Assembly (NCBI RefSeq): GCF_008831285.2
Contig: NC_045147.1
Location: 3,248,001-3,312,000, forward strand
DNA: 64,000 nt
DNA from: Nymphaea colorata
Taxonomy: Eukaryota > Streptophyta > Magnoliopsida > Nymphaeales > Nymphaeaceae
Direction of reading: 5' to 3'
Shown here: in pieces, positions 697-38,330 of the stretch
Position numbering within the stretch: position 1 is the stretch's first letter
Layout of the letters: each line of letters begins with the position of its first letter
Notes under the pieces: generated by a model
What the model was told of the DNA's origin: nothing
Databases searched by the model: none
What the model saw: only the letters and a program-made list of their open reading frames with translations
Position numbers and translations under genes: made by a program

Positions 697-737
697 AGGT
701 TTTGCCACTGAGAATGTTCGGTAAGAATCTCTAATTT

Positions 738-1006
738 CTGCCCTAATCTTTGTTTCTTTTCTGCCCTAATCCTCAAATCTCTATTTTCTGCCATAATCCC
801 CAAATTTCTGCCCTAACCCTAACCCTTAAATTTTCTGCCCTAATCTTTCCTAATCCTATCATTTACCCTAATCTGCCCTAATCCTTCCATCTGCCCTAAT
901 CTGCCCTAATCCTACCGTCTACCCTAATCTGCCCTAACCCTACCATCTGCCCTAATCCTACTGTCTGCCCTAATCTGCCCTACCGCCAGCCACCTAACCC
1001 TAATCT
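738..1006 (+). repeat. CTGCCCTAATC minisatellite in the copia leader
   Basis: The untranslated leader between primer site and gag is an imperfect array of an 11-bp unit, CTGCCCTAATC, with shorter CCCTAA variants. The core resembles the plant telomere repeat CCCTAAA. Because it is bounded by the primer site and the gag start, it belongs to the transposon and is not a telomere remnant. It may come from replication slippage. Confidence 0.8.
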
Positions 1007-1047
1007 CAAAATTTCTATTTTTCTCATATTTTCTGATTATTGCATTT

Positions 1048-1997
1048 ATGGATCCCCACCGCAATTCCAGCATCTTGTCGTCCAATTTACTCTCCCAACT
1101 TATCTCACAAAAGCTAAATCATACAAATTATTTGACATGGAAACGTCAAATAGTCCCGTTCATCAAGAGTCACCGTTTCTATGGACATCTCAATGGCACC
1201 ATGGCACCACACCTGCGCCACCCGAATGGATTATGCGAGAGGTGAAGAATGCTGCAGGGCAAGTTCAAGAGACTATTGCAGAAATCAACCTTGAATATGA
1301 GATGTGGATGGCTCATGATCAATCTCTCTTTGCTTATATCACCTCCACACTATCAGAGGAAGTTTTGGCGGGTGTTGATGATGATCTTTCAGCACTTGAG
1401 TTGTGGAATGTACTTGCTACCGCATATTCTCAAATATCAGAAGCGAGATTTCTACAACTCAAGAGGCAATTTCAGAATATCAAGCGAGGTACACGTTCAG
1501 TCTTGGAATATATACATGAGATAAAAAATGTTAGTGATCAGCTTACCATCATAGGGCATCCAGTCAGTGACAAGGACAAGGTACAGCAGACTTTGAGTGG
1601 ATTGGGGCCAAAATTTGATGTTTTCTGCACTGCTTTAGAGGTATTGCCTATTCTTCCCTCTTTTGAAGACTTGAAAACAAAGTTGATTCAATATGAAGCA
1701 AGTCGTGTACAACGACATGAATTAGTTCATTCTGGCGGTCACAATGTATTGGTCACTGGGACCCATGCTTTACAAGGAAGTCGTCCAAGAGTTTGGAACT
1801 CACAAGCAGGGATGGGGAGAGGTATCCTTCCTACACCTAACACAAATGCACAAGCAAATGTACCACGAAGGATACCTACTTGTTTTTATTGCAATAAGAG
1901 AGGTCATGTGAAGTCAGAATGTTGGCATAACCCACATAACAAGGGAAAACAGGTCCGGCGTGACAATAAGGCAGCAGGTCATCTGTTTCGAACATGA
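1048..1997 (+). pseudogene. copia gag (nucleocapsid) with one frameshift
   Basis: The ATG at 1048 opens a Gag N-terminus containing NYLTWKRQIVPFIKSH. The frame is lost near 1205-1220 and the protein continues in the frame that runs from about 1137 to 1997. That second part contains the UBN2-type Gag core (about 1290-1700, with LWNVLATAYSQ and FLQLKRQFQNIKRG). It ends with a CX2CX4HX4C zinc knuckle at 1881-1922 (CFYCNKRGHVKSEC). Gag would package element RNA in cytoplasmic particles. The frameshift means full-length Gag is not made from this copy as it stands. The stop at 1995-1997 overlaps the ATG of the following pol segment. Confidence 0.9.
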
Positions 1998-4900
1998 CTG
2001 CGACATCGAACATTTCCCCTGATGTGCAACAGATTCTAATGACAGCGTTGTCTAAAATCAATGTCAAGCAAAATGAGGAAGGACAATGGTATGTGGATTC
2101 TGGTGCTGCAGCTCATGTAACTGGTGACGCAGGTAAGCTTTCTAGTGCTCTCTCTTATTTAGCGAAAGACTCAGTTGTCACAGGAGATGGTTCCCATCAC
2201 AAAATATCACATATTGGAAATGCACACTTATCCATGGCTCATTCCTCAATACCTTTAAAGAATGTTCTTGTTGTTCCAAATGTCAACAAAAATATCATTT
2301 ATGTGTCAAAGCTTATTGATGATACTCATTCCTCTGTTGAGTTTACTCCTTCTTTTGTTTATGTTAAGGATGCTCGAACCAAGAAGACATTCGTTGAGGG
2401 TGTTCGCAAAGGAGACATGTACGTCATTGAAGAAGCTCCAAAAGTGTCTAAGTCTTGTGTTTCAGATTCATCCTTTCCCAGTCGTAGTGAAGTCAATATC
2501 ACAGAGTATGATATGCCATCTCTTTGGCACGGTCGTTTAGCACACTGTAGTCGGTCTTTCATTCAAAGTCTTGTTGCAGACGGACTATTACAAAAGTCCA
2601 GTCTAAGTCCTGTCATATTTGTAAGAGCCATGCTCTTCCTTTTCAATCAATAAATAAGCGAGCTTCGAAGTTATTTGACACCATTTATTCTGATGTTTGG
2701 GGGCCTGCTCCTATTTCTTCCTCTTCTGGGAGTAAATATTATGTTGTTTTCATTGATTCTTATTCTCGTTACACTTGGATCCACTTCATGAAAAACAAAT
2801 TAGAAGTTTTCCGCTTGTTCACCCAATTCCACGCCTTGGTCCAAAACAAATACTCTAGTAATATCGTGCATTTCCAATGTGATGGTGGTGGTGAGTTCAT
2901 TTCAAATGAATTTACTGAGTACTTACTAAATCATGGGATCACTAGACAAATTTCCTGTCCTCACACACCACAACAGAATGGTATTGCTGAAAGAAAACAT
3001 AGGCACATAGTTGAAAGTGCTCTCAGTTTGATGCATAACACTGATGTGCCCATGACTTTATGGACTGAAGCCTTCCATACTGCTGTTCATGTTATTAATC
3101 GACTGCCACTATCCATGCTTGAAGGAAAATCTCCATTCTTTATTTTACATCAAGAACAATCAAATTATGATGAGCTACGTGTTTTTAGATGCATCTGTTT
3201 CATGTTGATGTTTCTTTGAGAAATAAGTTTCAAGATCGAGCTGTCATGTGTAGATTTGTGGGTTATGTAGAAAATTATAAAGGCTATCGCTGTTACAATC
3301 CAAAAACTGGACGTGTGCATATTTCACGACATGTTGTTTTTGATGAGCTCAGGTTGAAGGATATCAAGGAGCCACATGCAACACTTAATGTTAGAAATGA
3401 TGTATATGACTCATGGATGAATGTTGAAATATTAGACCAAAGAGCTTATACACACCAGGCACAAAGTGACAAAACTATTGATGAGCCCGAGACAGACCTA
3501 ATCGGTTTTCAGGAATAGTGTATAATCGACGATCAGTTCCAGTTGATCCAGAAACTGCCACTACTTGTCCACGTAGATCAAAATGTGTGCGGCACCCTAT
3601 TGATAGATGGGTAAGTTATGGTAATTTCTCTTTGGATTTTTAGCTCTTCATGACATAATTGAACAAAAAGGTGGAGCTAAAATGCTATGAGCAAGCGTGC
3701 AAAAGCAAACATTGGATCGAGGCCATGAATGAAGAAATGGTTGCCTTAAATGAATGTCAAACATGGAAGATTGTTCCTCGTCCAGATGGTAAGAATGTAG
3801 TGGGCTCAAAATGGGTTTATAGACTCAAGTATAAACCTGATGGGAGCATTGATAGATATAAGGCTCGACTCGTGGCTAGAGGCTTCACTCAGCAGTACGG
3901 GGAAGATTATGATGAGACTTTCAGTCCAGTCATCAAGATGGGAACGATCCATGTTATCATCTCTCTTGCTGTCTCATATGGTTGGAATTTATATCACTTG
4001 GATGTTAAAAATGCTTTTCTTCATGACTTTCTAAAGGAAGAAGTTTGTATGGAACAACCTCCAGGATATGTTTCCAATGATCCAACCAAATGGGTGTGCA
4101 AATTACAAAAATCACTGTATGGGCTTAAGCAAGCATCTCGTTCATGGTTCGATAGATTTTCCCTCCATATACAACAGGCTGGTTTCCTCAGAAGTTCACT
4201 TGATCGTTCCTTATTCATCTATCATTCAGGTGAAGTTACCACTTGGCTACTTATATATGTAGATGACATAGTTTTTACTTGAAACTCTTCATGTCATATA
4301 TCCCATGTTAAGGAGGTATTGCAACAAGAATTCAAGATGAAGGATCTCGTATGGTATTTCTTGGATGTTGAGCTTGATAGAAAATGTGGCACATTAACCC
4401 TTACACAACATAAATACACTCTTGATATTTTGGATAAGGTAGATATGACAAGTTGCAAGCCCATAAATACACATAGTGTTCTCAATACAAAATTAAATGC
4501 ATCTTATGGGAGTGATGCATACCCAAATCCTAGTTTCTATCGGAGTATAGTTGGCATGTTGCAATATCTCACTTTTACACACCCATACATAGTATATGCT
4601 GTGAATCAAGTCTCTCAGTTTATGCATGCACCCACAGAAGGGCATATGGATGCTACCAAACGTATTTTGCGTTATCTTAAAACTACTCTTGGGGATGGAC
4701 TCATTTACACAAGACAGTCAACTGTTTTACATGGCCACAACATTTCCACTTATACTGATGCAGATTGGGCAGGTGATCCAGACGATAGACGATCGGTTTC
4801 CGGTTATTGTCTCTTCCTTGATTCCAATCTTATTTGTTGGAGTAGCAGGAAACAGCGTGCAATTGCCAGATCTAGCACTGAGGCAGAATATAGGGCAATG

Positions 4901-5231
4901 GCTGCAGGCACCGTTGAAGCTTCATGGTTACGTCATCTGCTTGGGGAACTTTCTCTTCCCATTGCTCAGTCATCTCTATTTTGTGACAACCAAAGCGCGA
5001 TCAAGATTGCCTTCAATCCTGTTCTACATAATCGCACTAAGCATATAGAGATTTGATCAACACTTCATTCGTCAAAAGGTTGCGGAAGATGAGATTGTTC
5101 CCACTTATATATCTACGTCTGAACAAGTGGCTGATCTTTTTACCAAGGGACTCACAAGGCACCATTTCTGGGAATTGAAAAACAAGTTGTGCATGATCAA
5201 ATCCCATGCACAACTTGAGGGGGGCTGTTAA
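1994..5231 (+). pseudogene. copia pol: protease, integrase, reverse transcriptase, RNase H; disrupted
   Basis: Segments in order: 1994-2653 holds the aspartic protease site WYVDSGAAAHVTGD and the start of the pre-integrase domain (WHGRLAHCS). After a shift near 2605 the frame to 3219 carries the integrase zinc finger (HICKSHALP) and core (SDVWGP, CDGGGEF, PHTPQQNGIAERKH). After another shift 3189-3518 carries the integrase C-terminal region (KGYRCYNPKTGR). 3659-4282 is reverse transcriptase (KARLVARGFTQ, LYGLKQASRSW, YVDDIVFT) ending in an in-frame stop. 4319-5056 continues RT and then RNase H (TDADWAGD, SSTEAEYR, CDNQSA). The reading would resume in another frame and stop just inside the 3' LTR. 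All catalytic motifs remain, but no single ORF does, so the copy is defective unless helped in trans. Confidence 0.9.
5217..5224 (+). other. Polypurine tract
   Basis: GAGGGGGG lies one base before the 3' LTR and would prime plus-strand DNA synthesis. Just upstream, 5186-5195 and 5205-5214 form a perfect 10-bp inverted repeat (GTTGTGCATG / CATGCACAAC) with a 9-base loop. Confidence 0.85.
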
Positions 5232-5507
5232 GTTTGTACATATGGATCGGGTCACCCAGACCCGACCCATATGATCCACACGCCCAACACATCATGGGCG
5301 GTGGCATACTTGTAAATGTTATTGTTATTTTGTGTATTTTATGATGTACCCTAAATCGTGATTAGTATATAATGATAACAAGAGGCAGACGTCATTTGTT
5401 GCTGCTCTCTTTCATCTCTCTCTTGCTTGGACGTGCAGCCCACTTCTCTTCCTCCTCTTGCATCTAAGTTCATTCGGTGGTTTGGTATTAGATATCAAAA
5501 TCTTACA
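5226..5507 (+). repeat. 3' LTR of the copia element
   Basis: A 282-bp copy of 401-684, bounded TGTTAAG...CTTACA and followed by the GCTGC target duplication at 5508-5512. It is about 98% identical to the 5' LTR by manual comparison. Confidence 0.95.
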
Positions 5508-12786: not shown

Positions 12787-13228
12787 TTTTTTTTTTTTAT
12801 TTCTCATAAATTACTTGTTTTTGCGAATATTTTGTAAGTATCGGGTTTGTGGTTCTTTTCCGCTTGAAGACGCCAGGGAAAGATGCATTCAGTTAAATCT
12901 GCTGGATGGGCGAATGGATAAATTGTCGGTAAATACTGTGAATTGTTACTGCATTATAAACCATTACAAGTATTCTTGTGGTGCCTTTTTTTATCTATTA
13001 TGATAAGATTTTTAATTTTTAGCCACATAATCTCTACATCTGCAGATAATTCACCTTAGCCGATTTGAACACACACGCACATATATATAGCTTTTTAGAG
13101 TCCTTCAATATATATAGCTTTTTAGAGTCATTCGGTAATCTCATTTCAGCATCATTCAACATGATGGATGGTTAAGAGAAAAATGAGAAGAAATTTAATA
13201 TTAGTTTATATATATATATATATATATA

Positions 13229-13261
<33 letters not shown>

Positions 13262-13736
13262 CTTTCAAGTATCCATTTTTTTTTAGATGGATGGAGTTCG
13301 GTAGATGGTTCGCTTACTATATATGTACCTAATCTTTTGTTATCTGCATATAAAAATTTTATTTTTTCTACCATAATTGTGATGTTATCAGAGTATTTAA
13401 AAAACATTATTAAATTTAAAAAAGTGCCTAGTTTAATTCATGTTTTTCATCAAAACACTCTTAGTATCATGTCCATGAGCTTAGATTGTAAAAAAAAACA
13501 CACTTTGATACAGATTTTTAATGGGTTTGGTTTGTTGTCTTTTATTTAAGTGGTCTGGTATCAATCATGCAATTTTAAAAAACAGTCACTAAAAATGCCA
13601 TGTAATGGAATCACTGGCAACAGTTTATAGAATAGTGGTAATCCATACTGTTTTTAGTGACAGTTTATGCTGCATTTAACCAGAACGTTTAAATATTTAA
13701 CCATCAGGTAAACAACATATTTCAATTTCTACAAAA

Positions 13737-17160: not shown

Positions 17161-18126
17161 CTAGATGCGGCATATTGCAGCAGCAGCAGGAGCGTTAATG
17201 AAGGAGGAAAGGCGATTGAGGATGTCGTCGGCGTTGGAGCACTTGGGGTCCATCAGGTGGAAGACGTGGCCCTCGTCCTTGTGCTCCACCACCTCGGCAG
17301 CGCCGCCCCACCCGCTTCCCTTCAGCACCTCGACGTACCACCTCCCCCTTCCGATCAGAAAATCCTTCTCCGCAAGAAACACCAACACCCTCCCGCAGCC
17401 GAGATGCGATATCTCCGGCCCGCCTGCTGCCACCACGTTCACGAGAGGGTCGTCGGTGCCGGGAGTGGTGGGGTAAACAAGCTCCCACAGGGGGTCGCGG
17501 CCCGGATTCTTTCCGAAGAAGTAGGGATGGATCAAAGCCAGCCCCGATATCTGCACCTTTAGATTTTCCTCGCCGGAGGGCGGTTCGAACGGAGCGGCGC
17601 CGCCGGCAGCCATGGCTAGGCTGTGGGAGATGGTGGCACCGGCGCTGTCCCCGGCCAGAACGATCCGGCCAAGGTCACCGTGATCCCTCAGCCACGGCTC
17701 CTCTGCGCCTTGGCGAGCCACCCACTGGAGGGCTGCCCAGGAGTCTAGGTAGCAGGCGGGGACGGGACACTCCGGTGCGAGGCGGTACTCCACGGAGACG
17801 ATTAGGGCCCGGGACACGGAGGCGAGGGAGTTGCAGAAGGAGTGGTAGATGGAGGAGAGGGCGGAGCCGACGCAGAAGGCGCCCCCGTGGACGTATAAGA
17901 CGATGGGGAGCCTATCCTCCCCCTTGTCGGCGAGAGGCGGGAGGAAAAGGCGGACGGAGACGCCGGTTTCCGGCGAGACGATGGCGTCTTTAGACGAGAC
18001 GCCCGTGCCGGCATCGACGCCCGGCGGGACGCGGTCGACGGGCATTAGCCTCTCGGCGCGGCCGTCCTTGTAGACGCGAATCAGCGGCGGAAACTCCGCG
18101 GCGACCTCTGCAGACCGCGGATCCAT
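17161..18126 (-). CDS. Plant class-I carboxylesterase (CXE-a), HGGA variant
   Basis: Intronless alpha/beta-hydrolase of 321 residues from the chosen ATG at 18126-18124. An in-frame ATG 33 bases upstream would add 11 residues (332 total), but the family's usual MDP... start matches the inner one. Such enzymes hydrolyse short acyl esters in the cytosol; there is no signal peptide or membrane segment. The N-terminal IRVYKDGR motif is at 16-23. The oxyanion-hole motif is HGGAF at 80-84, where most relatives have HGGGF. The nucleophile motif is GDSAG with Ser161, and the other triad members would be Asp255 (FLAEKD) and His287 (DEGHVFHL). Compared with its paralogues it has a 10-residue Ala-rich C-terminal tail and a shorter loop after HPYFFGK. 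It is the downstream-most member of the array. Substrate unknown. Confidence 0.92.
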   Translation of the reverse strand: MDPRSAEVAAEFPPLIRVYKDGRAERLMPVDRVPPGVDAGTGVSSKDAIVSPETGVSVRLFLPPLADKGEDRLPIVLYVHGGAFCVGSALSSIYHSFCNSLASVSRALIVSVEYRLAPECPVPACYLDSWAALQWVARQGAEEPWLRDHGDLGRIVLAGDSAGATISHSLAMAAGGAAPFEPPSGEENLKVQISGLALIHPYFFGKNPGRDPLWELVYPTTPGTDDPLVNVVAAGGPEISHLGCGRVLVFLAEKDFLIGRGRWYVEVLKGSGWGGAAEVVEHKDEGHVFHLMDPKCSNADDILNRLSSFINAPAAAAICRI

Positions 18127-18560
18127 CTCCTCAGCTCCGATTCGTTTCTTGTTGCACACAAAGCCTCAAACACAGAGCCAAGAGAATGGAGTGGGTGGTG
18201 AATGGTGATGGTCTTTAGCACGTAACTTGGGAGGTTGGTCCATATATTATTGTGGCATGGATTCTACAAACTTATATGGATCCATGCGGGTCGGATTTAT
18301 GACACGGATCCGAACCAGGTAGCACTTGCCCTCTTGCCTTGATGCCAATCGAATGGCCAGATCAGATGCATTTTGAGGCAATTCGTTTATCATGATCACA
18401 AATAGTTGACTAGTCTCAAAAAGATGACAAGAGACAGAAGAAAATATTAATTAATCAGACCTAGTTTGGGTTGGGTTGAGCTTGGTTGAGTTGGGCTTGG
18501 GCCCGAGTTTCAGATGTCGGGTCAACCAAAGTTCGGTTTCTTATCGGGTCGGGCTGGCCC
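18127..18560 (-). promoter_or_regulatory. Upstream region of CXE-a
   Basis: The 5' flank of the minus-strand gene. The only TATA-like element seen is AATATATGG (minus strand) at about 18241-18250, about 120 bases upstream of the chosen start, so assignment is tentative. Further out, 18465-18560 is a G/T-rich low-complexity stretch of GGTTGGG-type words. Confidence 0.3.
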
Positions 18561-19875: not shown

Positions 19876-20926
19876 ACAACAATATGTTGATGCAGACTAA
19901 CAAAATTTAACATTGTCAAATTCTCAAATCTTTTTTTTGCAATTTCCTCATGGACATTTCTTTCTCCATATTAAAAATAGTGCATGAAATTTTATACATG
20001 GAGACCGACCGTGTATATAACGAACTTCGAAGATACAACAATAAGGTGAAGTTATGCGCTCACATTGGGAAGCCACATGGTCGTCCCTTTTGCATGGTAT
20101 GCTCTTACAGCAGCTCCGATAATAAAAAGCAGTTAACTAGAGATTTATTATCAAAATTAACAACAAAATGATTCCTTGATTTGTGTATTATCTCACTATT
20201 TGCTTAGATCCATCTGATATTATTGTCATGATTTTTGCTAGGCATCATAATCTCTATTCTTATCAAAATCATCAATATCGGTGTCTCCATCTATGTTGTA
20301 AGTTGTTTCCTAGATTGTTGTTTTGAGAACGTTGACCTCACGGCATTGTTGTTGAATTGTAAATTGAAGTTTGAAAAAATGTACGGCTGACGCTTTCTCT
20401 TCCAGCCTCAAACCATTCTTGCTTTCCCACTCTTTTCATATTTGATGAATTTTAAGTTCTTTCTATGTATTCTTTACAACTTTTAAAATTTTGAAGGTTT
20501 TCTTGCATCTCTAAAAAATTTCAGGGTTTTGTAGCAATTCTTGCGATTTCTTTTCATTTGTTGCTGATTTTAATTATTTTCTTAATTTTTATTTTGAAAA
20601 AAAATGCTTCAATGATTCCAATGGGCAAGAGTTGGAATACATTTGACTCAGCAGATTGACGCCATCCTTATGATTTAATTCCAAATCAAATTTTGATACT
20701 ATAAGGATACACAAAAACACTTAGTTTCGTCTCAATATCTGACCCATTGGCTTGATAAATGAATGCATACCACCACACATTGTGTTGTTCACATGATTTC
20801 ACACACACACACATATATATATAATACAAAAGTAAGTTTTTTTTTTAGCCATCCATATGCTTTACATCGATCACTTTAGTTAAAGTGGTTGGTTGAGTGA
20901 TTCTAGATAAAGAGTCATCATTTACT

Positions 20927-21006: not shown

Positions 21007-22505
21007 TTATTGAATCATGACTTTGACATTCATTTGTGAAAAAGACACTTGATCCCAGCAGAGATGCTGTCTTTCTTTATAATTTTATTCTTTTTCCCCA
21101 CTTCCTTTCTTCTGAATTTTGCATTCCCTCCCTCCATCGACTCCCTCCCACCTGTGCTAAACCAGTCACCGCCGGCCGCATCACCCGACGTTGGTGGCCT
21201 TGCCAATCCCCGGCAGGCCTAGCACAAGAGGATGCTGCCGGCTGCGTCGCTGGTTGAGCACAAGTAAGAGTGAGGAGGAGATGGGTGGAATAATCTACCC
21301 ATCTCTGCCGCCACTATCCAGTGCTTTGTCGGCAGGTCTGTCAGGGCTCCGCCGAGTCCCAGCGGGCCCACTGGTGAGGCGCCAGGCAGTGGCAGCGAAG
21401 ATGGGAGGATTATTTCACCCATCTTTTGTCAAAACAAATGGAGGAAGAAATATTTAGAAAGGAGAGGGAGGCAGTAGCCGGTGCCTTTCACAGATGCCAG
21501 TGGGCCTACCAGCATAGGGAAAAAGCACCGGCAGGCGGCAGTGGTTGGTTCTAGTGGATGAGAAATTGGGCAAGGTCGGGAGAGAAAAAGTGAGAAAAAA
21601 TAATAAAATAGTAACATAAAAGAAAACAGGAGCATCTGAGCCATCTGATCTTAAAATCAAATGGGTCAGATCATCTATCATTTTGACAAATTAATGCCAG
21701 AATGGTTCAGTTTCTTAATATATATATGTGTATTTCTTTTAAATGATAGGTTCTACTTCCTTTATGCAAGCACTGATGGATGTGCTGAAAGCTACGAAAC
21801 GGGAAATTTTTAAAGTTTTCTTCTAAAAAATCACGTCAAAAAGATTAGGTGGAAAGTGCAAGAAGAAAAGAAATGGTATTGAAGATTAAATGCTTTCCCA
21901 AATCTTACCTAACAGGATTTTAGCTTCTTGACAAATAGCGATCTACAACTTCTTTCAATTTCCCTTTTTTCTGTGTGTGTTAAACTAGCTAGGGGTGGGT
22001 AGACCTACCACCTTGTGCAAATCTTCTAGACCTATTAAATGCATAGCTACAGACATAGTTTTCTGGTTTTAAATGCATGCCGAGGTTTTTCTGGCAAGTT
22101 ATTTCTTACAGAAAAAAATTAATTCAGGGAAATTTTAAAACAACTAAATCCTAAAAATAAAATGTAAAAATAACTATCTGGTAACTAAAAACTGTAAAAA
22201 CGTGACAATAGATAAAAGAAATGAAGAAAATGGTACATTTAGTCCTTTTTTTTTTCAGCTGATCTGTTTTAAATGGTTCGTGCTTGGAATTTTCAATTTG
22301 CTGTGTGTCCGCTGCCTAAACTCAGCTTGCAAATTGAAAGCAAAAGAAACAACCATAGAAAAGGAGAGAAGTTGTATTATCACAATTTTAGTATCCAGTC
22401 TTGGGTGTCAACTAAAGTTGGTGGAGTTGGGTGCCGTTCAATGTATGTCTAGAAGCTCTGCAGAAAATGAAATGAAAAAGACCCATACGTCATTTACAAA
22501 AACGG
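21003..22505. other. Intergenic DNA with a GC-rich patch
   Basis: 21130-21560 is GC-rich against an AT-rich background. It holds two small hairpin-forming segments (arms AGATGGGT/ACCCATCT near 21279-21305, and a related one near 21399-21424). Short ORFs on both strands have no recognisable domain. The remainder is AT-rich with nothing identified. Confidence 0.5.
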
Positions 22506-22997
22506 ATATATATATATATATATAAAACTTTTCAAAGCTACTTAGCCATTTAATCAGGACCAAGATGGGTAATTAAGAAAAATACAAAGAGAAAGAGTTA
22601 ATGATCAGTTTAGTCGTTCGGTATTCGTGAACACCTTTTTGTTTGTGTTTTTCTTTCAACCATTCATTTGATTCAAATGAATGAACTTGGTTAAATGGCT
22701 GATTGGTTAGATGGCTGATTATCAGAGTTGCCATTCAATTACTCTCTCTCTCTATATAGAGTAATTGAATGGCAACTCTGATAATCAGCCATCTAACCAA
22801 TCAGCCATTTAACCAAGTTCATTCATTTGAATCAAATGAATGGTTGAAAGAAAAACACAAACAAAAAGGTGTTCACGAATACCGAACGACTAAACTGATC
22901 ATTAACTCTTTCTCTTTGTATTTTTCTTAATTACCCATCTTGGTCCTGATTAAATGGCTAAGTAGCTTTGAAAAGTTTTATATATATATATATATAT
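22506..22997. repeat. Perfect palindrome, two 240-bp arms and a 12-base loop
   Basis: 22506-22745 is the exact reverse complement of 22758-22997, with no mismatch found in base-by-base reading. The loop is CTCTCTCTATAT at 22746-22757. The outer 18-19 bases of each arm are (TA)n. No ORF spans it. A transcript would fold into a 240-bp double-stranded RNA. Possible origins are a foldback MITE inserted at a TA microsatellite, a very recent inverted duplication, or a read/assembly fold-back artefact. Confidence 0.97.
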
Positions 22998-23009
22998 ATA
23001 AGTAGGTTT

Positions 23010-23690
23010 AAGTCTGACACAGTTTTTTCTGTAGTCAACCATCAATCCTGTTGACTGGACAACAGAATGAGCTTGTAACCATCGCATGATCATTTAATGT
23101 GCATATTACATGGAGCCTCTATGATGTGAATTGTGGAATCCGAAGTCATGAGTATAAATGTGATGTTACATGTGTGTTCTTTCTTGCCTTCAATTCTAAC
23201 ATGTATCAGAGCCAATGGTGGTGCGAAACTTTGTTGAATTCCAGTTTCATCAACATGGCATCAACCAGTTCTGGCAGCAGCCCGAATCAAGGGTAGATAA
23301 TTTATTCATCTCCTTCTGCACTTGCTTTTCTTGCTTCCGGAATTTCAAATTTGTATGTTCCAAAACCCGGAATATGTCACTGGGGATGATGTGATTAAGG
23401 TGGATTTTTTCCTCTCTCAGCAAGGCAGTCCATGCTTGAATTTTAGTTTGAAAAAATGTAAAAGAATTATATGCTGCCCATTCCAAAGAACAGGGTTTTT
23501 CAGCTTAAAGAACAACTTCAATGTCCTAAGAAAAGTGATAGAAGTGTTGATAAATATTTTGAGAGAGCCAAAACTTTGGCTTATCATTTGCCTCTTGCCG
23601 GGACACTGTCTAGGAGGATCATATTATTCTGTCCCTGTTGCATGGATTGCCACCTGAATAGCACTGCACACAAGCCAAGTCTAGCTTGAG
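23010..23690 (+). mobile_element. Degenerate Ty1/copia fragment: LTR end, primer site, gag
   Basis: TGTATCAGAGCC at about 23204 follows TTCTAACA and resembles an LTR end plus tRNA-iMet primer site. An ATG at 23255 then begins MASTSSGSSPN, a typical copia Gag N-terminus, soon hitting a stop. Downstream the words NRVFQLKEQLQCPKK and KYFERAKTLAYHL are a UBN2-type Gag core in another frame. No pol is present. The gag portion is the left part of a tandem duplication. Confidence 0.65.
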
Positions 23691-24030
23691 TTGGGGCAGC
23701 TCAATTTCAAATCGACTCAAAAAACTCAAGCTCGACTCGAGCTCGAGTTGAACTTGATAGAATAAGCTCAAGCTTGACTCGACAAGCACAAACTCAACTC
23801 ATTTAGCTTGTTTATGTTAAGTATATCTCGTTTCTTTTAACTCATTAACTTGTTTACTATTCTCATTATAATTAGACATTCATTATGTGGTCGAACTGAG
23901 TCAAGTTCTTACTACTCGAACTCGACTCTTTTAAAATTTTGAGCATACATTTGAACTTGAATTGGGCTCGTTTATAACAAGTCAAATTTTGACAAGTGAG
24001 TTTGAGTAGAGCTCAAGCTGGCTTGGCTCA
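23245..24030. repeat. Tandem duplication unit A, about 785 bp
   Basis: Runs from CATCAACATGGCATCAACC through the gag fragment and a segment rich in CTCGAGCTCGAGTTGA-type words to GGCTTGGCTCAGC. The next copy starts immediately at 24031 with the same CATCAACATGGCATCAACC words. Confidence 0.8.
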
Positions 24031-24338
24031 GCTTCATCAACATGGCATCAACCAGTTGTGGCAGTAACCCGAATCAGGGATAGATAATTTGTTCATCTCC
24101 TTCTGCACTTGCTTTTCTTGCTCCTGAAATTTGTATGTTCCAAACCCGGAATATGTTACTTGAGGATGATGTGATGAAGCCTGAAGGTGTATTTTATCCT
24201 CTCCCAGCAAGGTTGTCCATGCTTGAGTTTTAGGTTTCAAAACTTCATATGCTTTTTGGAAAAATGTAAAGGAATTATATGCTGCCCATTCCAAAGAACA
24301 GGGTTTTTCAACTTAAAGAACAACTTCAATGTCCTAAG
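24031..24338. repeat. Tandem duplication unit B, left part (split by insertion)
   Basis: Homologous to the first 310 bp of unit A, with small indels. It breaks at TGTCCTAAG (24338), where a 3.3-kb element is inserted. The rest of unit B resumes at 27632. Confidence 0.85.
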
Positions 24339-27300
24339 CAGTGGTGGAGCCTGAATTTTTTGCAGGGGCAGGCCAAACGGTCCTTGGGTCGGACCAAACC
24401 AAGAGAAGCGACAGGTCAACCAAAAGGAGCGACGGATAAGTGTCATATATATATAGTCTTGATAAAGGGAATAGGAAGAGCGGAGGCCTCTTACTCCTTC
24501 CTCACACGTTTTACGATTTTTTCTTAGAACAAACAAGCAAGAGAGAGGCCTCCCCTGCGTGAGAAACAGGGCTCCCTGCTGCTTCTCCTGTTCCAATGCC
24601 GAGGAGTGAAGGGTAGAGTTTTCTGAAACAAGGTGCATCTCTCTCTCGTCGTCGTCTTCTTCTTTTTATTATTGTTTTTTCTGATTTTTTGGGGCCACCC
24701 TTGTTCCAAAACCTCTCTCTCTCTCCTCTCCGTAGACTTGTTTCTCCTCAGAGCAACAACACGGGAAAAAAAAAAAAAAAAAACGACTCGACCTCCCTCC
24801 CCAATCACAAACCCCACGCTTTTCAATCCTCCAGATTCCAGCAATTGATTGTTTGATGTAACCAATCTTCCCCTGCGTGAGAAACAGGGCTCCCTGCTGT
24901 TTCTTCTCCTCCTACTTCTGTCAAATAAAAAATTATTAAAACATTTACTTACAAGATTGTTCAGCCCACTAAAAACAATCAGTGAGGGTTTGATAAAACT
25001 GTGGATAGATCCGCGAGAAATCAAACGCAACCTCACTGGTTTTTCTTTTATTCAAATAAGTTTTCATTTTTAAAAAGCTTTTTGGGCATATAGGGGGCTG
25101 AGCTGAGGGTTGCCCGGTATGAAAATTCATAATACATTCTACTGCCCACAACCACCATCCTTGCAACAAATATACACCCGGCTTCCAATAGATATATATT
25201 TCTTCCAGAAAAAGTGAAAACAACAAGCAGCCTTCAATAGATATATATTTCGTCCAAAAAAAAAAAAAAAAAAACAGCCCCGAAAAAGAATCTTGTTCTT
25301 CCTCCAAGGCGCTGCTATCCGGGACCAATTTCCATCAAGTTCCAGATTTGATCCAAACTCAAAATCTGGATAAGCTTTACAAAAGGTAGTAAATCTGTCT
25401 TCAGTTAACATGACATTACAAATAAACGTAATATCTGGTTTCTTGGCATCAATTGATCAAAAACAACCTCTAGAGACTGCTGTGTTAGAAAGCCGCCTTA
25501 CATTCCTACTAAGTCTCCTCATAAAGAAAATAAGAATATTAGGTCGGGTTCTTACCGAATCAGGACAATAATTCGGGACATTCTTCTTGTTGCCTTCAAT
25601 ATTAATCCGATTAGATAGTCATTTTGAAGCGCAGAAGGGGGAATATGAAATCCAATGGAAAGTAGATATGTAAAAAATAAGTCCTGTTACGGACAGGTTA
25701 TATGTAACACACAAACGGTTGCCCCACGAGATCTAGTTAGGAATGCTGCCATGATCCGTGCTGAACGGTATCTTTTTTCAATTGGTTGAAGATTGATATT
25801 ATGTTTTTTTATTAAAAAATAGAAATAAACAAAAAAGGCTGTAAATACAAAAGACTAATAACAAAAAATCAACAAATTGTTGTTGCAACTGATTAAACAC
25901 GAAGGGGTAAATTGCTGTTTGCGTGATTAACAATCTTTGTGAACACCAAAGAGCTTGAATTAAGAAACCAAACAAGGCTAATAATGTAATGTTTGTGAAT
26001 CAGAATATTGCACATACATAGCAATATACGGACTAAATGTTTTTAACCCTTTTTTGGCATAAGGTAATGGATTGAAAATGACTTCCATATGATGATCAAG
26101 AGGACCACCCTCTTCCTCCATGTAGGAAAAAGGCCAAAAAAATAAAAAGAAAAGAGTGAAGCAAGCATGGCAAGGGAACACATTAAGATGAATCCAGAAG
26201 TAAAGTTTAATTTTTTTTTGTGGTGCCTTCAACCAAGAGTTCATAAAAAATTGGAGGCGGGTTGCTCGATGTCTGCTGGTGTGGGCGAGTCCTTGTTGCT
26301 GTCAAACGTCTACGGAACAGAAACACATGATCTACCGAACAGTAATGACTTCTTCTCAATGTGTTGCAAACAAACAAACCAAAAAAAAAAAAAAAAAAAA
26401 AAAAATCAAATTTCTGCAACATGATTTTGTATTTTCTTTTTCTTTTTTATCTTTGTCCCCTTCTTCCTTGGTTCCTTTCATGGCCATTTGCGGTTCTATC
26501 CTTTTTTTTCTCTTTTTTTTTTGTGATTTTCATCCAACAAACTTCTAACATCCTACAAATTTGAATTCACAAATAAAAGATTGATATAAAGATGAGACCG
26601 TATAATCAAACGCGGTTTTGACTGGATTGGATAGAGTACACACGTGCAAGCCTACCCACTCATTTGTTGGTTAACCCAAAAAAAAAAAACACGTTTCTTG
26701 TTTCTTGATCCAAAAAATACATTTTTTGAAACTATAGATTCGGAAAGTATTTGATGTTCAATAGACCATTGAGAAAACCTTGTTAGGTGAGGCATTCCTG
26801 TAATTCGAAATAGGGTGAAGCTAATTTTTTTTTTTTTTTATGAAGCACTAAATATATAGTTAATAAATTTTTAATTGGTTTTATAGGCAGTGACCCGGAT
26901 TTTGTGGGGTTGTCTCATGTAACTGGACCCAGGTTTATTGTGATTCAACATGTAAATTCAATCTCATCTAACTGGACCAAGGTTTATTGTGGTTCAACGT
27001 TTAAATTCAAAATTTTAAATTGGGTTAAGTGGGGCACACACCCAACGGAGCCGCCACAACCTATCTCCCCTTGATTCAAAAGTTCATCTCCACTAATCAA
27101 ACCAACTGATATGGATCGCAAATCTACCGTCGAATACTAATAAAAAATTGAAAATAAAATTGGTTGTGTCATATATATAGTGGACCGCACAAAATATTTA
27201 TCCATATATAAATAAATATAGTTTGTTTATCTATTCAGTTATATATAAGTAATGGTGAGGCAATTAACATGGTTGGGTGTTTTGTATTGTTTGATCCAAC

Positions 27301-27631
27301 TGAATTGTGTATCCATGTTTCTTTCTCTCTTGTTTCCTTCTTCCTTATGGACGTGCTTGCCTCACTATGCGGACTTTTACCTTTTGTTTTTTTAAATGGT
27401 GGGTGGAAAGCTGATCTTCCACGAGTGAGGGTTGAAGCTTCCTCCCATCTTCTCAGGGTCATGGCAGGAGCGGAACCAGGATTTTTTTTAAGGGCGGACC
27501 AAACGATCCATGGGTCGGACCAAGAGGAGCGACAGGTCGGGCCAAGAAGAGCGACGGGTCGGGCCAAACTAAAAAAATTTTGATTTTTTCAATATAATTT
27601 TTTTTTTCTGCGCTCACTCCCTCCGCCCCTG
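24339..27631. mobile_element. 3.3-kb non-autonomous hAT-like transposon
   Basis: It starts CAGTGGTGGAGCC, and the reverse complement of its end is CAGGGGCGGAGGG, the terminal-repeat type common in plant hAT elements. The 8-bp GTCCTAAG occurs on both sides (24331-24338, 27632-27639) and is single in the uninterrupted tandem copy A, which proves insertion. No transposase is recognisable; ORFs inside are low-complexity. Inside are poly(A) runs at 24766, 25256 and 26380 and a 31-bp exact duplication starting TCCCCTGCGTGAG at 24551 and 24869. A direct-orientation copy of the left terminus lies 167 bp before the right end (from 27465). Confidence 0.85.
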
Positions 27632-28120
27632 GTCCTAAGAAAAGTGATAGAAGTGTTGATAAATACTTTCAGCGAGCCAAAACTATGCCTTATCATTTGC
27701 CTCATGCTAGGACACTGTCTAAGAGGATTATATTATTCCTTCCCGGTTGCATGGAATGCCACCTGAATAGGAATGCACACAAGCCGGCTCACCCTTGAGT
27801 TGGGGCAGCTCGATTTCGAACTCTACTAAAAAAAACTCAAGCTCGACTCAAACTCAAGTTGAACTTGATAGGACAAGGTCAAGCTTGACTTGACAAGCAC
27901 AAACTCGACTTGTTTAACTTGTTTATATGTTAAGTATGTCTCGTTTCTTTTAACTCGTTAACTCGTTTACTATTTTCTCATTATAATTCAACATTCATTA
28001 TGTGGTCGAGCTGAGTCGAGTTTAAATGAATTAAGTTCTTACAACTCGAACTTGACTCGTTTAACATTTCGAGCATATATTTGGACTCAAGTTTTGACTC
28101 GTTTATAAGAGTCAAGTTTT
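27632..28120. repeat. Tandem duplication unit B, right part
   Basis: It continues the gag fragment (AAAAGTGATAGAAGTGTTGA...) and the GAGCTCGA-rich segment, matching 23533-24010 of unit A. It ends near GACAAGCGTACACC. Together with 24031-24338 it makes one complete unit. Confidence 0.85.
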
Positions 28121-30050
28121 GACAAGCGTACACCTAAATATGATGCCTTCAAAGTTTCCATTACCACTCTTGTGCAATCTTCCCGGTTGCATTAAATTTG
28201 ACCCCCAAACGTAACCTTGTCCAACGAAACTCACCGTCATTTGGTTACAATCAGAACTATCAAAACAATTTTGAAATCAAAATGCTTATTTTTTAAGAAA
28301 TTGAAATTTTAAACAAACCGGGGATTTTGTTTTTAAAATTTTGAACCTAAAACTTGGGCTTTTGATTCCATTTCAATTTAAGGCACAACTATGATTCTGG
28401 AGTTTTCATTCTTGAACCAAAATTCCAAACCGTCAAACGCCTCCAATGGTAATGACTATTCAAAGTGGGGTAATGGATCATCTTTGTCTCTCATATTGGA
28501 AATTCTTATATTTCTTTTGGATCTATTTTTTCATGAAAGATATTTCCTGTGTGGCTAACATTACTAATTGCTCTTTGTCGAAAGAATTATTCATGACAAC
28601 CTAATGATATTCGAGTTCCAGCCAGTGGTAGAGATACATGAGGTCTGGTGTGCACCAGCCCATCCAAAGTTTCATTAGAAGAATCCAAAGTGAATTATGT
28701 TATGATAATTTAAAAATTACATAGGTTGCTTACATCAGACTTATTTTGGCGACTCTAATGTCTCTCAACAAAAAAATCATAGTCCTGCAACTGGTTCTAG
28801 CTAGTAGCCAAGCCACATATAGGCTGGTGTGGGCAGTTGTCTGGATCTGATACTGAGAGGATCATTTAGATCGTTGCAGAAATCCAGTCCCAACCCAAAT
28901 TACATCTAGTTGTTAATTTAATTGTTGACGTAACTCTCAATCGTAAATCCAAAGTATTCCCAAATTTTCATGTGTGATTTGAATTCTCTTTAGAGTTTTA
29001 AAATGATGATTGATTAAACCGTTCCAGAAGAAGTGGATTAATATATATTTAGCTTCTATGAGCCATACACAAATTCATTTCTTAGTAATACACGTACCAC
29101 ACCATAAAAGTTAAAGCTGTAAATCTTTTTCGCTTTACAAAGGCAATTCTATAACTTAAAGAAATTGAGTAAACCTGATCCTTGAAGGGAGCCATTGAGG
29201 TTAAATGCTGTCGCCAGAAGAAGAAGAAGAAGGCCGAAAGCTCTTCTCAGTCCTTGGTCTGCGGTCTAAGACTACTTTCGGACTTGAGTAAGGTATGGTA
29301 CACCCACTAAATAGAGTGTTCCTATTTCGTTGTAATCTAAAAAACTAGTGCCCATGAAAAACTAACAACCAAACTTTCACCAGCTCCTCAACCCAACAAG
29401 CTGTGCTATGTCCCTTGAGAGATTTGGATTAAATTTTGTCATGTTTTGAGTGAGAAAGTAAAAGGACTCCTAGATTAAACGAGCTTGCTCGAGTCTAATT
29501 GAATCGACTTTAACTTGACTCATTTATATGCTCCAGTTTTCAGTTAAGCTAGAGCTCAATTTGTTTAGCAAAGGAGTCGAACTGAAGCTCAAGTTGGCTC
29601 GATTCATTGCCAAGTTATTCTTAGATCTCACATAATCTAGTTAACTTTTTATTTTAGTAAACATTCTTATTTAACTGAACATGGAGGAGCTAAATTATAG
29701 GAATTGAGATCCCATTATCCAAATCTGCTCTGACTTATTTTCCCATGGCAGCATCTTAAACAACAGAAGATAACAGCTCAGGCCGTGCCATCTGTCCAGT
29801 CTGGTCGGCCATTGGTAGCCCACCATCTTGGCAGCCGATTCCGCCCGAGGTAAGACTGGTTGGTCGGCTTCATCCGAAATTCCATCCCAACGGCTTGACT
29901 GCTGGTTAATCAAGAGGGGAAAACGGATCCTAAGTATTCGGGTCTGCAATTCTGGTTTCATCCATTATTCTGTGCGAACAAGATCCGTATCGAATCAAAT
30001 TTATCTTTTTAGATTGTAAATTTGTAATCACTTATGTCAGATGGTATGCA
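28121..30050. other. Intergenic repeat-derived DNA
   Basis: No gene supported. A CAGTGGTAGAGATACATG stretch at about 28624 resembles a degraded hAT end. 28270-28450 is related to 34990-35230 by shared words (for example AAAATTTTGAACC and CAAAATTCCAAACC), a low-copy dispersed repeat. Confidence 0.45.
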
Positions 30051-30376: not shown

Positions 30377-31336
30377 TCAATCACGATTGATGAAGGAGAC
30401 GATGCGGTTCATGAGATCCTTGGCCTTCTGGGTCTTGTTGTTGAAGAGGTAGAAGCAATGGCCCTCCCCTTCCGTTTCTTCCAGCTCCAGGTCGCCGCTC
30501 CACCCGCTTTTTTTCAGGGCGTCGTGGTACAGGAGTCCCCTTCCTCTCAGGTGATCCTTCTCCGCCACGCACACCAGCACCCTCTTGCACACCAGCTTCG
30601 CCAGGTCCGGCGAGCTCGCCGCCACGATGTTGATCAGCGGGTCGTCCGGCAGGCGCGTGGTCGGGCACACGAATTGCCAGTGGTCGTCCTCCGACGCGTT
30701 CGCCTCCGAGAAGACGGTGTGGATCGCGATGAGCCCCACCACCTTAACCGGAACATCTCCCTCCGTTGGAACCGGCCCGAACGCCGGGGCGCCACTGGCT
30801 GCCATCGCCATGTGGTGGGCGAAGTTCCCGCCGGAACTCTCCCCGATGAAGAAGAACCGGTCGAAGTCGCCGTGCTCCGCCAGCCACGGCTCCGCGCCGG
30901 GGCCGGCCGTCGCCTGGCGGGCCACCCACTGGACGGCCGCCCAGGAGTCGAGGTAGCCGGTGGGGATGGGATGCTCTGGCGCGAGGCGATACTCGACGGA
31001 GACCGCGAGGACGCCGGCCTGGGCGGAAAGGGCGGTGAGGTGATTGTGGGCGACGCGGCTGAAGGCGGAGCCGGCGCAGAAGCCGCCGCCGTGGAAGTGG
31101 ATGAGGATGGGCAGCTTCTTTCGGTTGGTTGGTGGTGGGTTGGGAAGGGGAGGGAGGAAGAGGCGGACGGCGACGCCTGTTTCCGGGGAGATGACGACGT
31201 CCTTGGTGGAGACGCCGGTTTCCGGGTCGACGCCCGCAGGGACCAAGTCCGGCGGCATGAAGCGCTCGACGCGGCCGTCCTTGTAGATGCGGACGAAGGG
31301 AGGGCGATCCTCTGCGATCTCTTGGGACGGATCCAT
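30377..31336 (-). CDS. Plant class-I carboxylesterase (CXE-b), GESSG nucleophile motif
   Basis: Intronless, 319 residues from ATG at 31336, starting MDPSQEIAEDRPPF like its paralogues. Alpha/beta-hydrolase of the GDXG (HSL-related) family, predicted cytosolic, hydrolysing small esters or catalysing related eliminations. The HGGG oxyanion motif is at 82-85. The nucleophile Ser167 is in GESSGGN where the family consensus is GDSAG. Asp261 lies in VAEKDH and His293 in EGEGHCFYL. It has a proline-rich insertion (about 63-70) before the HGGG strand. Closest in-window relative by motifs is CXE-c (both AEPWLAEHGDF and GES). TATAAAA on the minus strand about 61 bases upstream of the ATG is a credible promoter. 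A long antisense ORF covers it but is a composition artefact. Confidence 0.93.
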   Translation of the reverse strand: MDPSQEIAEDRPPFVRIYKDGRVERFMPPDLVPAGVDPETGVSTKDVVISPETGVAVRLFLPPLPNPPPTNRKKLPILIHFHGGGFCAGSAFSRVAHNHLTALSAQAGVLAVSVEYRLAPEHPIPTGYLDSWAAVQWVARQATAGPGAEPWLAEHGDFDRFFFIGESSGGNFAHHMAMAASGAPAFGPVPTEGDVPVKVVGLIAIHTVFSEANASEDDHWQFVCPTTRLPDDPLINIVAASSPDLAKLVCKRVLVCVAEKDHLRGRGLLYHDALKKSGWSGDLELEETEGEGHCFYLFNNKTQKAKDLMNRIVSFINRD

Positions 31337-31396
31337 GGTCTCCTTCTCTGTTCTTCGCTCACTTTTCTTCTACCCACAGGGAAAGGGAGGAACCAT

Positions 31397-32867: not shown

Positions 32868-33812
32868 TCAAGATTGATTGATGAAGGAGACAATCTTCTC
32901 CATTAGATGCTTCGCCTTATTGGAGTGGGGAGCGAAGAAGTGGAAGGCATGGTTCTCTCCCTCAGTTTCCACAATCTCCGCAGCGCCACGCCATCCTCGC
33001 CGAACCAGCACCTCGTAGTACAAGCGACCGACGTTTCTCATCTTGTCCTTCTCGGCCACGCACACCAACACGCGGTCGCAAGCCAGCCGGTCAATTTCCG
33101 GCGCGCTTTGCGCCATGAAGTTGATAATGGGATCGTCCGGCAACGTGGTAGTCGGGCAGACGACCCTCCACAGCGGCTCGTCCTCCAACTTCGCTTCCGG
33201 CTCCGAGAAAGCCGGGTGCACCAGCACGAGCCCCACGAACCTCACCGGCAAGCCGCCCGCAGGCAGGGGCCCGAACGCTGGGGCGCCGCTAGCTGCCATC
33301 GCCATGTGGTGCGCGTGATTGGCTCCGGCACTCTCCCCGGCAAGGAAAAGCCGGTGGAAGTCGCCGTGCTCCGCTAGCCATGGCTCGGCTTCAGGCCCCG
33401 CTTCGGCTTGGCGCACTACCCACTGGAGGGCAGTCCAAGAGTCGTAGTGGCCGGCAGGGACGGGGTGCTCCGGTGCGAGGCGGTACTCGACGGACACGCC
33501 GACGGCTCGGGCCTCCGCAACAAGGGAGGCCACGTAAGGGTGGTGGCTCGAAAAGGCGGAGCCAATGCAGAAACCGCCACCGTGGAAGTAGACGACGATA
33601 GGGAGCTTGCCACTGGGCAGCGGATCAGGGAGGTAAAGGCGGACGGAGACGCCAGTTTCCGGGGCGATGACGACATCTTTGGAGGTGGCGCCGGCTTCAG
33701 GGTGGTGGCCGGAAGGGATGAATCCGATGGCTATGTATCGCTCGACAGTGCCGTCCTTGTAGACACGAAAGAAGGGAGGGTGCTCGGCCTCTATCTCCTT
33801 GCAAGGCTCCAT
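32868..33812 (-). CDS. Plant class-I carboxylesterase (CXE-c)
   Basis: Intronless, 314 residues from ATG at 33812 (MEPCKEIEAEHPPF). The FRVYKDGTVERY motif is near the N-terminus, HGGG at 77-80, nucleophile Ser161 in GESAG, Asp256 in VAEKDK, His288 in EGENHAFHF. All triad residues are present, so an active hydrolase is expected. The loop after VHPAF is short (SEPEAKLEDEPLW), as in CXE-b and unlike CXE-d and CXE-e. The coding sequence is strongly GC-rich compared with its flanks. Immediately upstream is a CT-rich leader, and at 120-193 bases before the ATG there is a perfect 37-bp tandem duplication. Substrate cannot be predicted; known relatives act on xenobiotic esters, tuliposides or isoflavanones. 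Confidence 0.93.
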   Translation of the reverse strand: MEPCKEIEAEHPPFFRVYKDGTVERYIAIGFIPSGHHPEAGATSKDVVIAPETGVSVRLYLPDPLPSGKLPIVVYFHGGGFCIGSAFSSHHPYVASLVAEARAVGVSVEYRLAPEHPVPAGHYDSWTALQWVVRQAEAGPEAEPWLAEHGDFHRLFLAGESAGANHAHHMAMAASGAPAFGPLPAGGLPVRFVGLVLVHPAFSEPEAKLEDEPLWRVVCPTTTLPDDPIINFMAQSAPEIDRLACDRVLVCVAEKDKMRNVGRLYYEVLVRRGWRGAAEIVETEGENHAFHFFAPHSNKAKHLMEKIVSFINQS

Positions 33813-33931
33813 CTCTCTCCCTCTTTCCCTCCCTCCCTCAACTCAGCAGCACCATTTCGTAAGCGGAGAAAGTATGGGCCAAGGTCCACATGATGTGTTA
33901 GGTCCACCGTCTTTTCTCAAGCCTGTCAGTC

Positions 33932-36598: not shown

Positions 36599-37585
36599 TC
36601 AGTCGCGGTTTATGAAGGCGACGACGCGGTTCATGAGGGATTTGGCGTTGTCGCAGGTGGGCTTCATCAGATGGAAGACGTGGTCCTCATCGTCGTGCTG
36701 CTCGAACTCCACCACACCCTCCCACCCGCCCCTTCCGAGCAGCTCGTTGTACAGCCGCGCCCTGTCGCCCAAGTAGTCCACGCCGGCGGCGAATATCAGG
36801 ACGCGCCGGCAGCGGAGCTGCGAAAGTTCCGGCGCGCTGTCGGCCAAGAGGTGAACGAGCGGGTCGTCTGTCCCCGCGGCCGCCCCCGGGCAGGTGACGC
36901 GCCACAGCGCCGCCGATTCCTCCCTCTGCTTCGTCACGAACTCGTCGTCGACTGGCGTCCAGCCGGCGAAGTAAGGGTGGAACAGGATAAGGCCGGTGAT
37001 GCTCATGGGGAGGTTGTCGGCGGGAAGCGGGCCGATGACTGGGCAGCCGCTGGCGGCCATCGCAAGGTGGTGGGCGATGTTCCCGCCGGCGCTATCGCCG
37101 CCGAGGAAGATCTGGTCGAAGTCGCCGTGGTCTGCGAGCCAGGGCTCGCAGTGCGGCCCGCCGGAAGCCTGGCGAGCCACCCACTGGAGGGCAGCCCAAG
37201 AATCGAGGTGGGGAGTGGGTACGGGGTGCTCCGGCGCGAGGCGGTAGTCGACCGAGACGCCGATAACGCCAGCCTGCGCGGTGATGGCATTGAGAAAGGA
37301 GGTGTAGATGTCGGAGCGGGCGGACTCGATGCAGAAGCCGCCGCCGTGGATGTAGAAGAGGATGGGGAGCTTCTTACCAGGGGGAGGCGGTGGATGGGGG
37401 CGGAAAAGGCGTACGCACACGCCGGTTTCCGGCGAAATGACAACGTCCTTGGAGGCTACACCGCCGGAGTCCGGGTGTGGGGAGGGAGGGACGATCTTGG
37501 GAACGTGGATCTTCTCCACGCGGCCGTCCTTGTACACGCGAAGGAAGGGGAAGAGCTCGATGTCAATCTCCTTGGAGGCTTCCAT
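36599..37585 (-). CDS. Plant class-I carboxylesterase (CXE-d)
   Basis: Intronless, 328 residues from ATG at 37585 (MEASKEIDIELFPF). An in-frame ATG 51 bases upstream would add 17 residues that have no match in the paralogues, so the inner start is preferred. HGGG at 80-83, nucleophile Ser165 in GDSAGGN, Asp270 in AAGVDY, His302 in DDEDHVFHL. It shares with CXE-e an insertion of roughly ten residues after HPYFAGW (PVDDEFVTKQREESAALW). That loop lies over the active site in this family and may shape the substrate pocket. The proline run PHPPPPPG (63-70) precedes the HGGG strand. Expected cytosolic soluble esterase. Confidence 0.93.
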   Translation of the reverse strand: MEASKEIDIELFPFLRVYKDGRVEKIHVPKIVPPSPHPDSGGVASKDVVISPETGVCVRLFRPHPPPPPGKKLPILFYIHGGGFCIESARSDIYTSFLNAITAQAGVIGVSVDYRLAPEHPVPTPHLDSWAALQWVARQASGGPHCEPWLADHGDFDQIFLGGDSAGGNIAHHLAMAASGCPVIGPLPADNLPMSITGLILFHPYFAGWTPVDDEFVTKQREESAALWRVTCPGAAAGTDDPLVHLLADSAPELSQLRCRRVLIFAAGVDYLGDRARLYNELLGRGGWEGVVEFEQHDDEDHVFHLMKPTCDNAKSLMNRVVAFINRD

Positions 37586-37636
37586 CTTCTCCGTCGCTCT
37601 TGAAACTCGACAGAGAGAGAGGGCGGTATTGTTCAA

Positions 37637-38086
37637 TCCTTTTCTTGTCCATACTGGTTCATCTTGTTAAGATTCCCTGATTTCGGGTCGGGTTTAGGCT
37701 CAAACCAACCAAATTTGAAATTGAACTTGGATTTAGAAACATGGGTCGAACAGTTGGTTTGAGTTTGGATCGGAATTTAACCAGTTTAATTAACAACCGA
37801 TTTTTACATGTAAAGTGACGTCCATATGAATTTCTCAATTCACGTTCGCATCCGGGTTTAAATGTAAAAATGAATCTCCGAAACCAATAGAGTTCTGTTA
37901 ATGATCTTTAACTACTTTACCAAACATTACAACTGATTGAACTGGTAGGTGAGTTGCCATTTGGTTGAGGTCACTTTTCGCCCGTGGTTAGACTTGTTGG
38001 TAGGGTCGATGGGACTCATATGTTCCAAGAGAGAGAGAGCTCAAAAAAAGCAGAAGTACAATTATAAAAAGAATTAACAACTTATG

Positions 38087-38131: not shown

Positions 38132-38330
38132 CAATGGTGACTGATAGTTAAGTTGTTTATTCACGAGGACTGTCGTGATCAACGGTTGAGAGAAAAATAA
38201 GAAGAAAATTATATTAACTAAAAAGCACATTTTATATCTTGTTTTTTCTCAACCGTTCATCATGGTATATATATCACTTGGTATTCAAGTGATAGTTGAA
38301 GAGTTACGTGAACACCTAATTAGCTTAAAA
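38089..38330. mobile_element. Small (TA)n-bordered hairpin element
   Basis: A (TA)n tract at 38089-38127 is followed by AACGGTTGAGAGAAAAATAAG (about 38180) and its near inverted copy TTTTTTCTCAACCGTT (about 38244), then TATATATA and GTGAACACCT. The order of motifs resembles the arm of the palindrome at 22506-22997. No ORF. Confidence 0.45.

Follow-up and report, generated by a model that had tools for sequence, protein, structure and literature searches.

A perfect palindrome in Nymphaea colorata that probably arose by recent inverted duplication of an old (TA)n-flanked foldback MITE

Results

The palindrome and its surroundings

The window, i.e. the whole stretch of 64,000 nucleotides analysed in this study, corresponds to C10:3248001-3312000 of its own assembly (407.8 Mb, 783 contigs), and this assembly was also the genome searched. 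Five carboxylesterase-like Abhydrolase_3 ORFs are clustered in the window, all on the minus strand (17161-18165, 30377-31369, 32868-33842, 36599-37666 and 50871-51911). A probable Copia LTR retrotransposon is located at 399-5449, where 226-bp direct repeats, 97% alike, lie around a gag ORF (900-1997). Duplicated segments were found within 23050-28126 (23523-23996 and 27632-28126, 84%; 23242-23530 and 24029-24338, 82%). The first part of this region (23050-23203) is by eye LTR-like and is followed by a word that we take to be a candidate primer site, and two ORF pieces from the region gave no Pfam match above cut-off. Positions 22102-22278 belong to a different dispersed repeat with 39 further matches in the genome (71-90%).

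Between the first two of the esterase ORFs lies a palindrome of two arms (22506-22745 and 22758-22997), in which all 240 of 240 bases pair as exact reverse complements around a spacer of 12 bases, CTCTCTCTATAT (22746-22757). This confirms an earlier note on this DNA, which had reported a perfect palindrome with 240-bp arms, and also its observation of (TA)n at both outer ends. The placement between two carboxylesterase genes given there is correct but loose, since the Abhydrolase_3 ORFs are 4.3 kb and 7.4 kb away. Each arm consists of 18 bases of (TA)n and 222 bases of complex sequence (Table 1). The palindrome is far beyond chance; the runner-up among the listed inverted repeats with a spacer below 40 bases consists of (TA)n runs of 34 bases. 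In the 600-base flanks outside the arms no additional inverted similarity was detected (best local score 13.4, shuffle mean 12.0, with 13.4 reached by 40 of 300 shuffles).

Table 1. Coordinates of the features of the palindrome (positions in the window).
Feature	Position	Strand	Evidence
(TA)9 at the outer end of the left arm, corresponding to the left flank of the MITE	22507..22524	.	(TA)5+ at most 60 bp to the left in 23/30 full-length copies
Left arm, a single decayed MITE copy covering about positions 18-240 of the unit	22524..22745	+	39 diverged genome copies; match to the 240-bp unit
5' half of the old inner inverted repeat, pairing with 22635-22700	22536..22595	+	Shuffles, RNA folding
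3' half of the old inner inverted repeat	22635..22700	-	Shuffles, RNA folding
Centre, ATTA(CT)6(AT)2(AG)2TAAT, putative first switch point	22738..22765	.	(CT)n(TA)n right flank in 6/30 full-length copies
Right arm, the left arm copied in inverted orientation	22758..22979	-	0 differences
(TA)11 at the outer end of the right arm, putative second switch point into the right flank	22979..23000	.	

A direct query of the window with the arm returned nothing longer than 17 bases besides the palindrome itself and (TA)n. This agrees with the view that the arms have no obvious sequence in common with the esterase genes, and it speaks against an origin of the palindrome from these genes or from other sequence of the window. 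A modular array of elements between the (TA)n tracts on the left was also considered and rejected, because the inverted repeats in that part do not coincide with the tract edges (best pair 21279-21315 and 21388-21424). The one ORF tested at the palindrome, which overlaps its left edge (22148-22525), had no Pfam match. No Rfam family reached the gathering threshold anywhere in the window, and a curated RNA family was rejected on this basis.

Both proximal flanks of the palindrome are unique in the genome. Matches of the left flank elsewhere reach only the dispersed repeat at 22102-22278, and the right flank matches nothing elsewhere apart from 59 bases at its far end, which are repeated locally. 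The single assembly searched thus offers no empty site for comparison.

A single arm is a decayed copy of a dispersed MITE

The key result came from the search of the genome with a single arm, which the earlier note had proposed. Single-arm copies proved to be numerous. The 41 matches comprise the two arms and at least 39 dispersed, diverged copies (best 40 of 63 candidates scored), to which the arm is 56.8-71.4% identical in aligned columns. Exact-word scans of a prokaryote and a viral collection, neither of which is expected to contain plant DNA, gave 0 matches to the arm, and a literature text search with sequence words of the arm found no match.

The ends of the fetched copies define a variable unit of the form (TA)n-GGAAAA-TTGAATGGTGACTC...GAGTCATCATTCACTCACT-(CT)n(TA)n. 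A majority unit of 240 bp, built from 20 copies, folds from one end to the other (-127.8 kcal/mol) and thus has terminal inverted repeats (TIRs). Used as a genome query, the 240-bp unit yielded 1716 first-look candidates, the best 40 of which were scored (81-88% match). Together, 39 loci from the arm query and 30 from the unit query, less 6 duplicates, gave 63 distinct loci. The unit is present at 63/63 of these and a perfect inverted pair at 0/63. The unit ends were consistent across the 30 full-length copies, which are among the best-scoring copies and no random sample. Of these 30 copies, 23 have (TA)5+ within 60 bp to the left, 18 have it within the same distance to the right and 13 have it on either side, compared with 39 of 1232 control stretches. 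A compound (CT)n(TA)n right flank was present in six.

The dispersed unit, short (about 240 bp), non-coding and present at 63 loci, is a (TA)n-associated foldback MITE, and it is probably abundant. Its insertion in (TA)n microsatellites is of the kind described for MuTAnT, SaTar/Micron and Ac-mMITE, and by analogy in this behaviour the family groups with these elements. Whether the MITE might belong to the Mutator-like elements (MULEs) was also considered. With respect to the target site duplication of 8-11 bp typical of MULEs, a match outside microsatellite sequence was seen in 1/30 copies and in 35/578 mismatched control flanks, and was thus no more frequent than in the control; the mostly microsatellite flanks would hide such a duplication. 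The MULE transposase domain PF10551 gave 141 matches in the genome. The one that was inspected has a unit (locus L009) at a distance of about 5 kb on one side, and none was present in the 4.5 kb examined on the opposite side.

Eight copies (L010-L013, L018, L021, L022 and L027) have common sequence past the 3' end of the unit, and at these loci the MITE is probably carried by a larger repeat. They were omitted from the statistics on unlinked pairs (leaving 31 copies for the arm query, and 55 loci with 1485 pairs in total), but are included in the totals of 39 and 63. Three decayed relatives of this MITE are present in the window, at 13115-13318, 20836-20926 and 38189-38260, beside or around (TA)n tracts, and none of them lies in an esterase ORF. 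The family accounts for several of the long (TA)n runs of the window.

The arm covers about positions 18-240 of the unit. At the start of the 5' TIR, about 17 bases are unrecognisable, and (TA)9 abuts at this point. In local alignment with the 63 distinct loci the best identity was 80.6%. The arm also retains an inverted repeat of its own (Table 1), the pairing score of which was reached by 2 of 1000 shuffled arms. One arm folded as RNA gave -67.3 kcal/mol (z -6.0), and folded as DNA a z of -4.5. Each arm is thus itself a decayed foldback, so that the palindrome is two-layered, with an old inner and a new outer inverted repeat.

The arms share private decay

Aligned with each other, the two arms have 0 differing columns. 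Both have the same 5' truncation and the same 12-bp deletion, which is whole in 1/39 copies, and at 7 of 195 compared columns both have a base that is absent from all other copies. Positions 22689-22704 and 22705-22720 form a near-perfect 16-bp tandem repeat, which looks private to the arm in the alignment with the 39 copies. For independent sites at the best identity observed (80.6%), the probability of 0/222 differences is about 1.6e-21. Since the arms are identical and carry the same private decay although the copy is old, they are best taken as copies of each other and not as two insertions. Judged from the alignments, two independent insertions are very unlikely, and the second arm would have been copied from the first or both would have been homogenised.

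Substitution rates of 7e-9 and 2e-9 per site and year were applied. The 95% upper bound from 0/222, which dates the last homogenisation of the arms, is about 1 million years at the former and about 3.4 million years at the latter rate. The earlier note had offered very young, actively maintained or artefactual as alternatives for the palindrome, and the complete identity of the arms of an old, strongly diverged repeat copy supports the first of these. The interpretation given in the note is thus supported in part; the MITE nature of the arm was missed there.

Local pairs within the family

More than one unit or fragment was present at 14/63 distinct loci. Ten linked pairs had 60 or more aligned columns, and five of these were more alike than 99% of the 1485 unlinked pairs (threshold 0.853), the highest identity of an unlinked pair being 0.992. 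Four of these five are in the same orientation (L009, L028, L032 and, barely above the threshold, L079), and the fifth, L015, is inverted (766 bp apart, 0.903). The linked pairs at L009, L015, L028 and L032 are 90-95% alike and are possibly older local duplications; local duplication thus seems to recur in the family. The other five pairs are below the threshold, including the adjacent inverted pairs at L023 (0.693, with 7 bp between the units) and L038 (0.772, with 11 bp). As these are adjacent and inverted yet are not recent copies, independent side-by-side insertion does happen in this family. Among the loci examined, a perfect adjacent inverted pair exists only at 22506-22997. A query spanning the centre of the palindrome reported only its own site in the genome; this query is sensitive to close copies only, and diverged single units were not reported.

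Discussion

Origin of the palindrome

In this study, a perfect palindrome was traced to a dispersed MITE. We consider it probable that it arose when a single old foldback MITE with (TA)n flanks was recently duplicated in situ in inverted orientation. The most likely ancestral order at the locus is left flank, (TA)n, decayed MITE, (CT)6(AT)n and right flank. As a 3' flank of (CT)n(TA)n is known in the family, the left arm with (CT)6(AT)2 is readable as a MITE together with the flank that belongs to it. In this model, a nascent 3' end within the (CT)n/(AT)n sequence would have folded back, with AG annealed to the CT tract as a primer, and reverse copying of the MITE would have proceeded to its (TA)n. 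There, the new strand may have re-annealed at the (TA)n of the original right flank, where synthesis continued. The underlying mechanism could be template switching during replication or break repair via fold-back priming.

Several features are consistent with such a path. The right arm begins with AGAG, the complement of the CT tract, and the reversed copy exits via (TA)11 into the right flank. The palindrome has the form of a fold-back product, i.e. a perfect adjacent reverse copy (0 differences) with joints at short homology (AG/CT at the centre, (TA)n outside), and both joints lie within microsatellites of the kind that flank the MITE family. The six CT against two AG at the centre might reflect annealing of the AG end in a shifted CT register, or later loss by slippage. 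The priming match at the centre is a few bases only, and both joints are of low complexity, so that the path cannot be read base by base. We infer the order of the steps and an origin in a single event; the proposal is based on one assembly, in which the best 40 of 1716 unit candidates were scored.

An older inverted MITE pair, the arms of which were kept or made identical by gene conversion, is the strongest of the competing explanations, but we consider it improbable. Gene conversion is a familiar process between closely spaced arms, and inverted pairs are present in the family (L015, L023, L038 and L071). However, the identity is unbroken over 222 bases without a less converted edge, whereas other adjacent inverted pairs are 69-77% alike, and two insertions followed by full conversion require more steps. 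Active maintenance, to which we give the same low probability, is not needed to explain the identity of the arms.

Slightly less probable still, and unlikely in our judgement, is an artefact by which a fold-back chimeric molecule or read entered the assembly. In vitro, fold-back molecules arise by the same snap-back priming. However, a simple fold-back read would enter the reversed left flank, whereas at this locus (TA)11 is followed by the unrelated right flank, and a consensus would need a (TA)n joint in addition to the turn at the centre.

That the entire palindrome is a mobile foldback MITE with very long TIRs, inserted in (TA)n like MuTAnT or SaTar elements, appears distinctly doubtful. 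Size, flanking (TA)n and long arms do match families in the published descriptions, such as the 292-bp MuTAnT with 144-bp TIRs and gSaTar12, of 380 bp with 180-bp TIRs (PMC5907723). Against this, the dispersed unit is the single arm (63/63 loci, no perfect inverted pair), and the inner end of the arm is an ordinary MITE end with a microsatellite flank. The case for a mobile palindrome is weakened further by the centre query, which reported the palindrome's own site and would detect close copies only. Least credible of all, and very improbable, are two separate head-to-head insertions at neighbouring microsatellites, for which published accounts of SaTar and Ac-mMITE arrays and the close pairs L023 and L038 could be cited, but which do not fit identical arms with common private decay when the nearest other copy examined is 80.6% identical (chance about 1.6e-21 for independent sites).

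Possible hairpin RNA and significance

If transcribed, the folded region (22524-22979) would give a hairpin of 222 pairs plus (TA)n; a role as hairpin RNA is speculative. By analogy with Mu killer, the palindrome could even be a newborn locus of that type, from which read-through would yield 21-24-nt RNAs acting on the MITE family or on nearby genes; we rate this as highly improbable. If it were true, one replication slip would have turned a dead MITE into a silencer. The analysis gave no sign of a function, and none is needed to explain the palindrome.

The proposed inverted duplication of a MITE is of wider significance. The locus contains an internal clock, since an old repeat copy is combined with zero differences between arms, and thereby points to a long perfect hairpin that arose in one step from an ordinary MITE, with joints supplied by the microsatellite flanks of that MITE. 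Should this be confirmed, new palindromes and candidate hairpin RNA loci would be expected to arise continually from abundant MITEs with (TA)n and (CT)n flanks. A further caution is that what looks like a foldback element with very long TIRs may be a doubled MITE and no mobile unit.

Comparison with known systems

As described in the relevant passages of the report on Medicago truncatula (PMC4486113), the near-identical TIRs of MuTAnT consist of four similar segments, and the element has (TA)n flanks. Like the family described here, MuTAnT is a short foldback element flanked by (TA)n. In MuTAnT, however, the foldback itself is dispersed, and target duplications of 9 bp as well as a related transposase are reported. 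In the present family the single arm is dispersed, target duplications are no more frequent than in the control flanks, and no transposase link was found at the one PF10551 match inspected. SaTar/Micron (PMC5907723) and the pineapple Ac-mMITE (PMC8449440) are likewise small dispersed elements in microsatellites of the (TA)n/(CT)n type, often in microsatellite-joined clusters. The accounts of these clusters in the two papers speak of separate insertions, whereas the copies here are identical with common private decay, and therefore one arm was copied from the other. For pineapple, the same source reports that microsatellite-inserted MITEs have fewer 24-nt siRNAs than relatives with target duplications (PMC8449440).

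Hairpins formed by template switching (PMC8794818) and fold-back inverted duplications at yeast breaks (PMC10622511) are likewise single events that produce a perfect adjacent reverse-complement copy. Those cases concern RNA genes and yeast chromosomes, while the present one is a 222-bp MITE with microsatellites at both joints, known from its sequence alone. Literature searches on template switching with microsatellites and with hairpins in miRNA genes retrieved no papers, and we make no claim that fold-back doubling of a MITE is absent from print. Small inverted triplications (PMC13334657), in the outline given there, also comprise inverted fragments (median 160 bp) with short joints and breakpoints near microsatellites. 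They contain a third, direct copy, whereas in the palindrome the (TA)n tract is the sole candidate for such a part. Maize Mu killer is, according to the summary in PMC3440606, also an inverted duplication of transposon sequence, for which a read-through hairpin RNA was proposed. Mu killer silences MuDR lines, whereas the arm here is far from its family and the palindrome is a feature read from genomic DNA only. Both kinds of structure, the MITE and the fold-back inverted duplication, are thus already known, and the palindrome is a clean case of both together.
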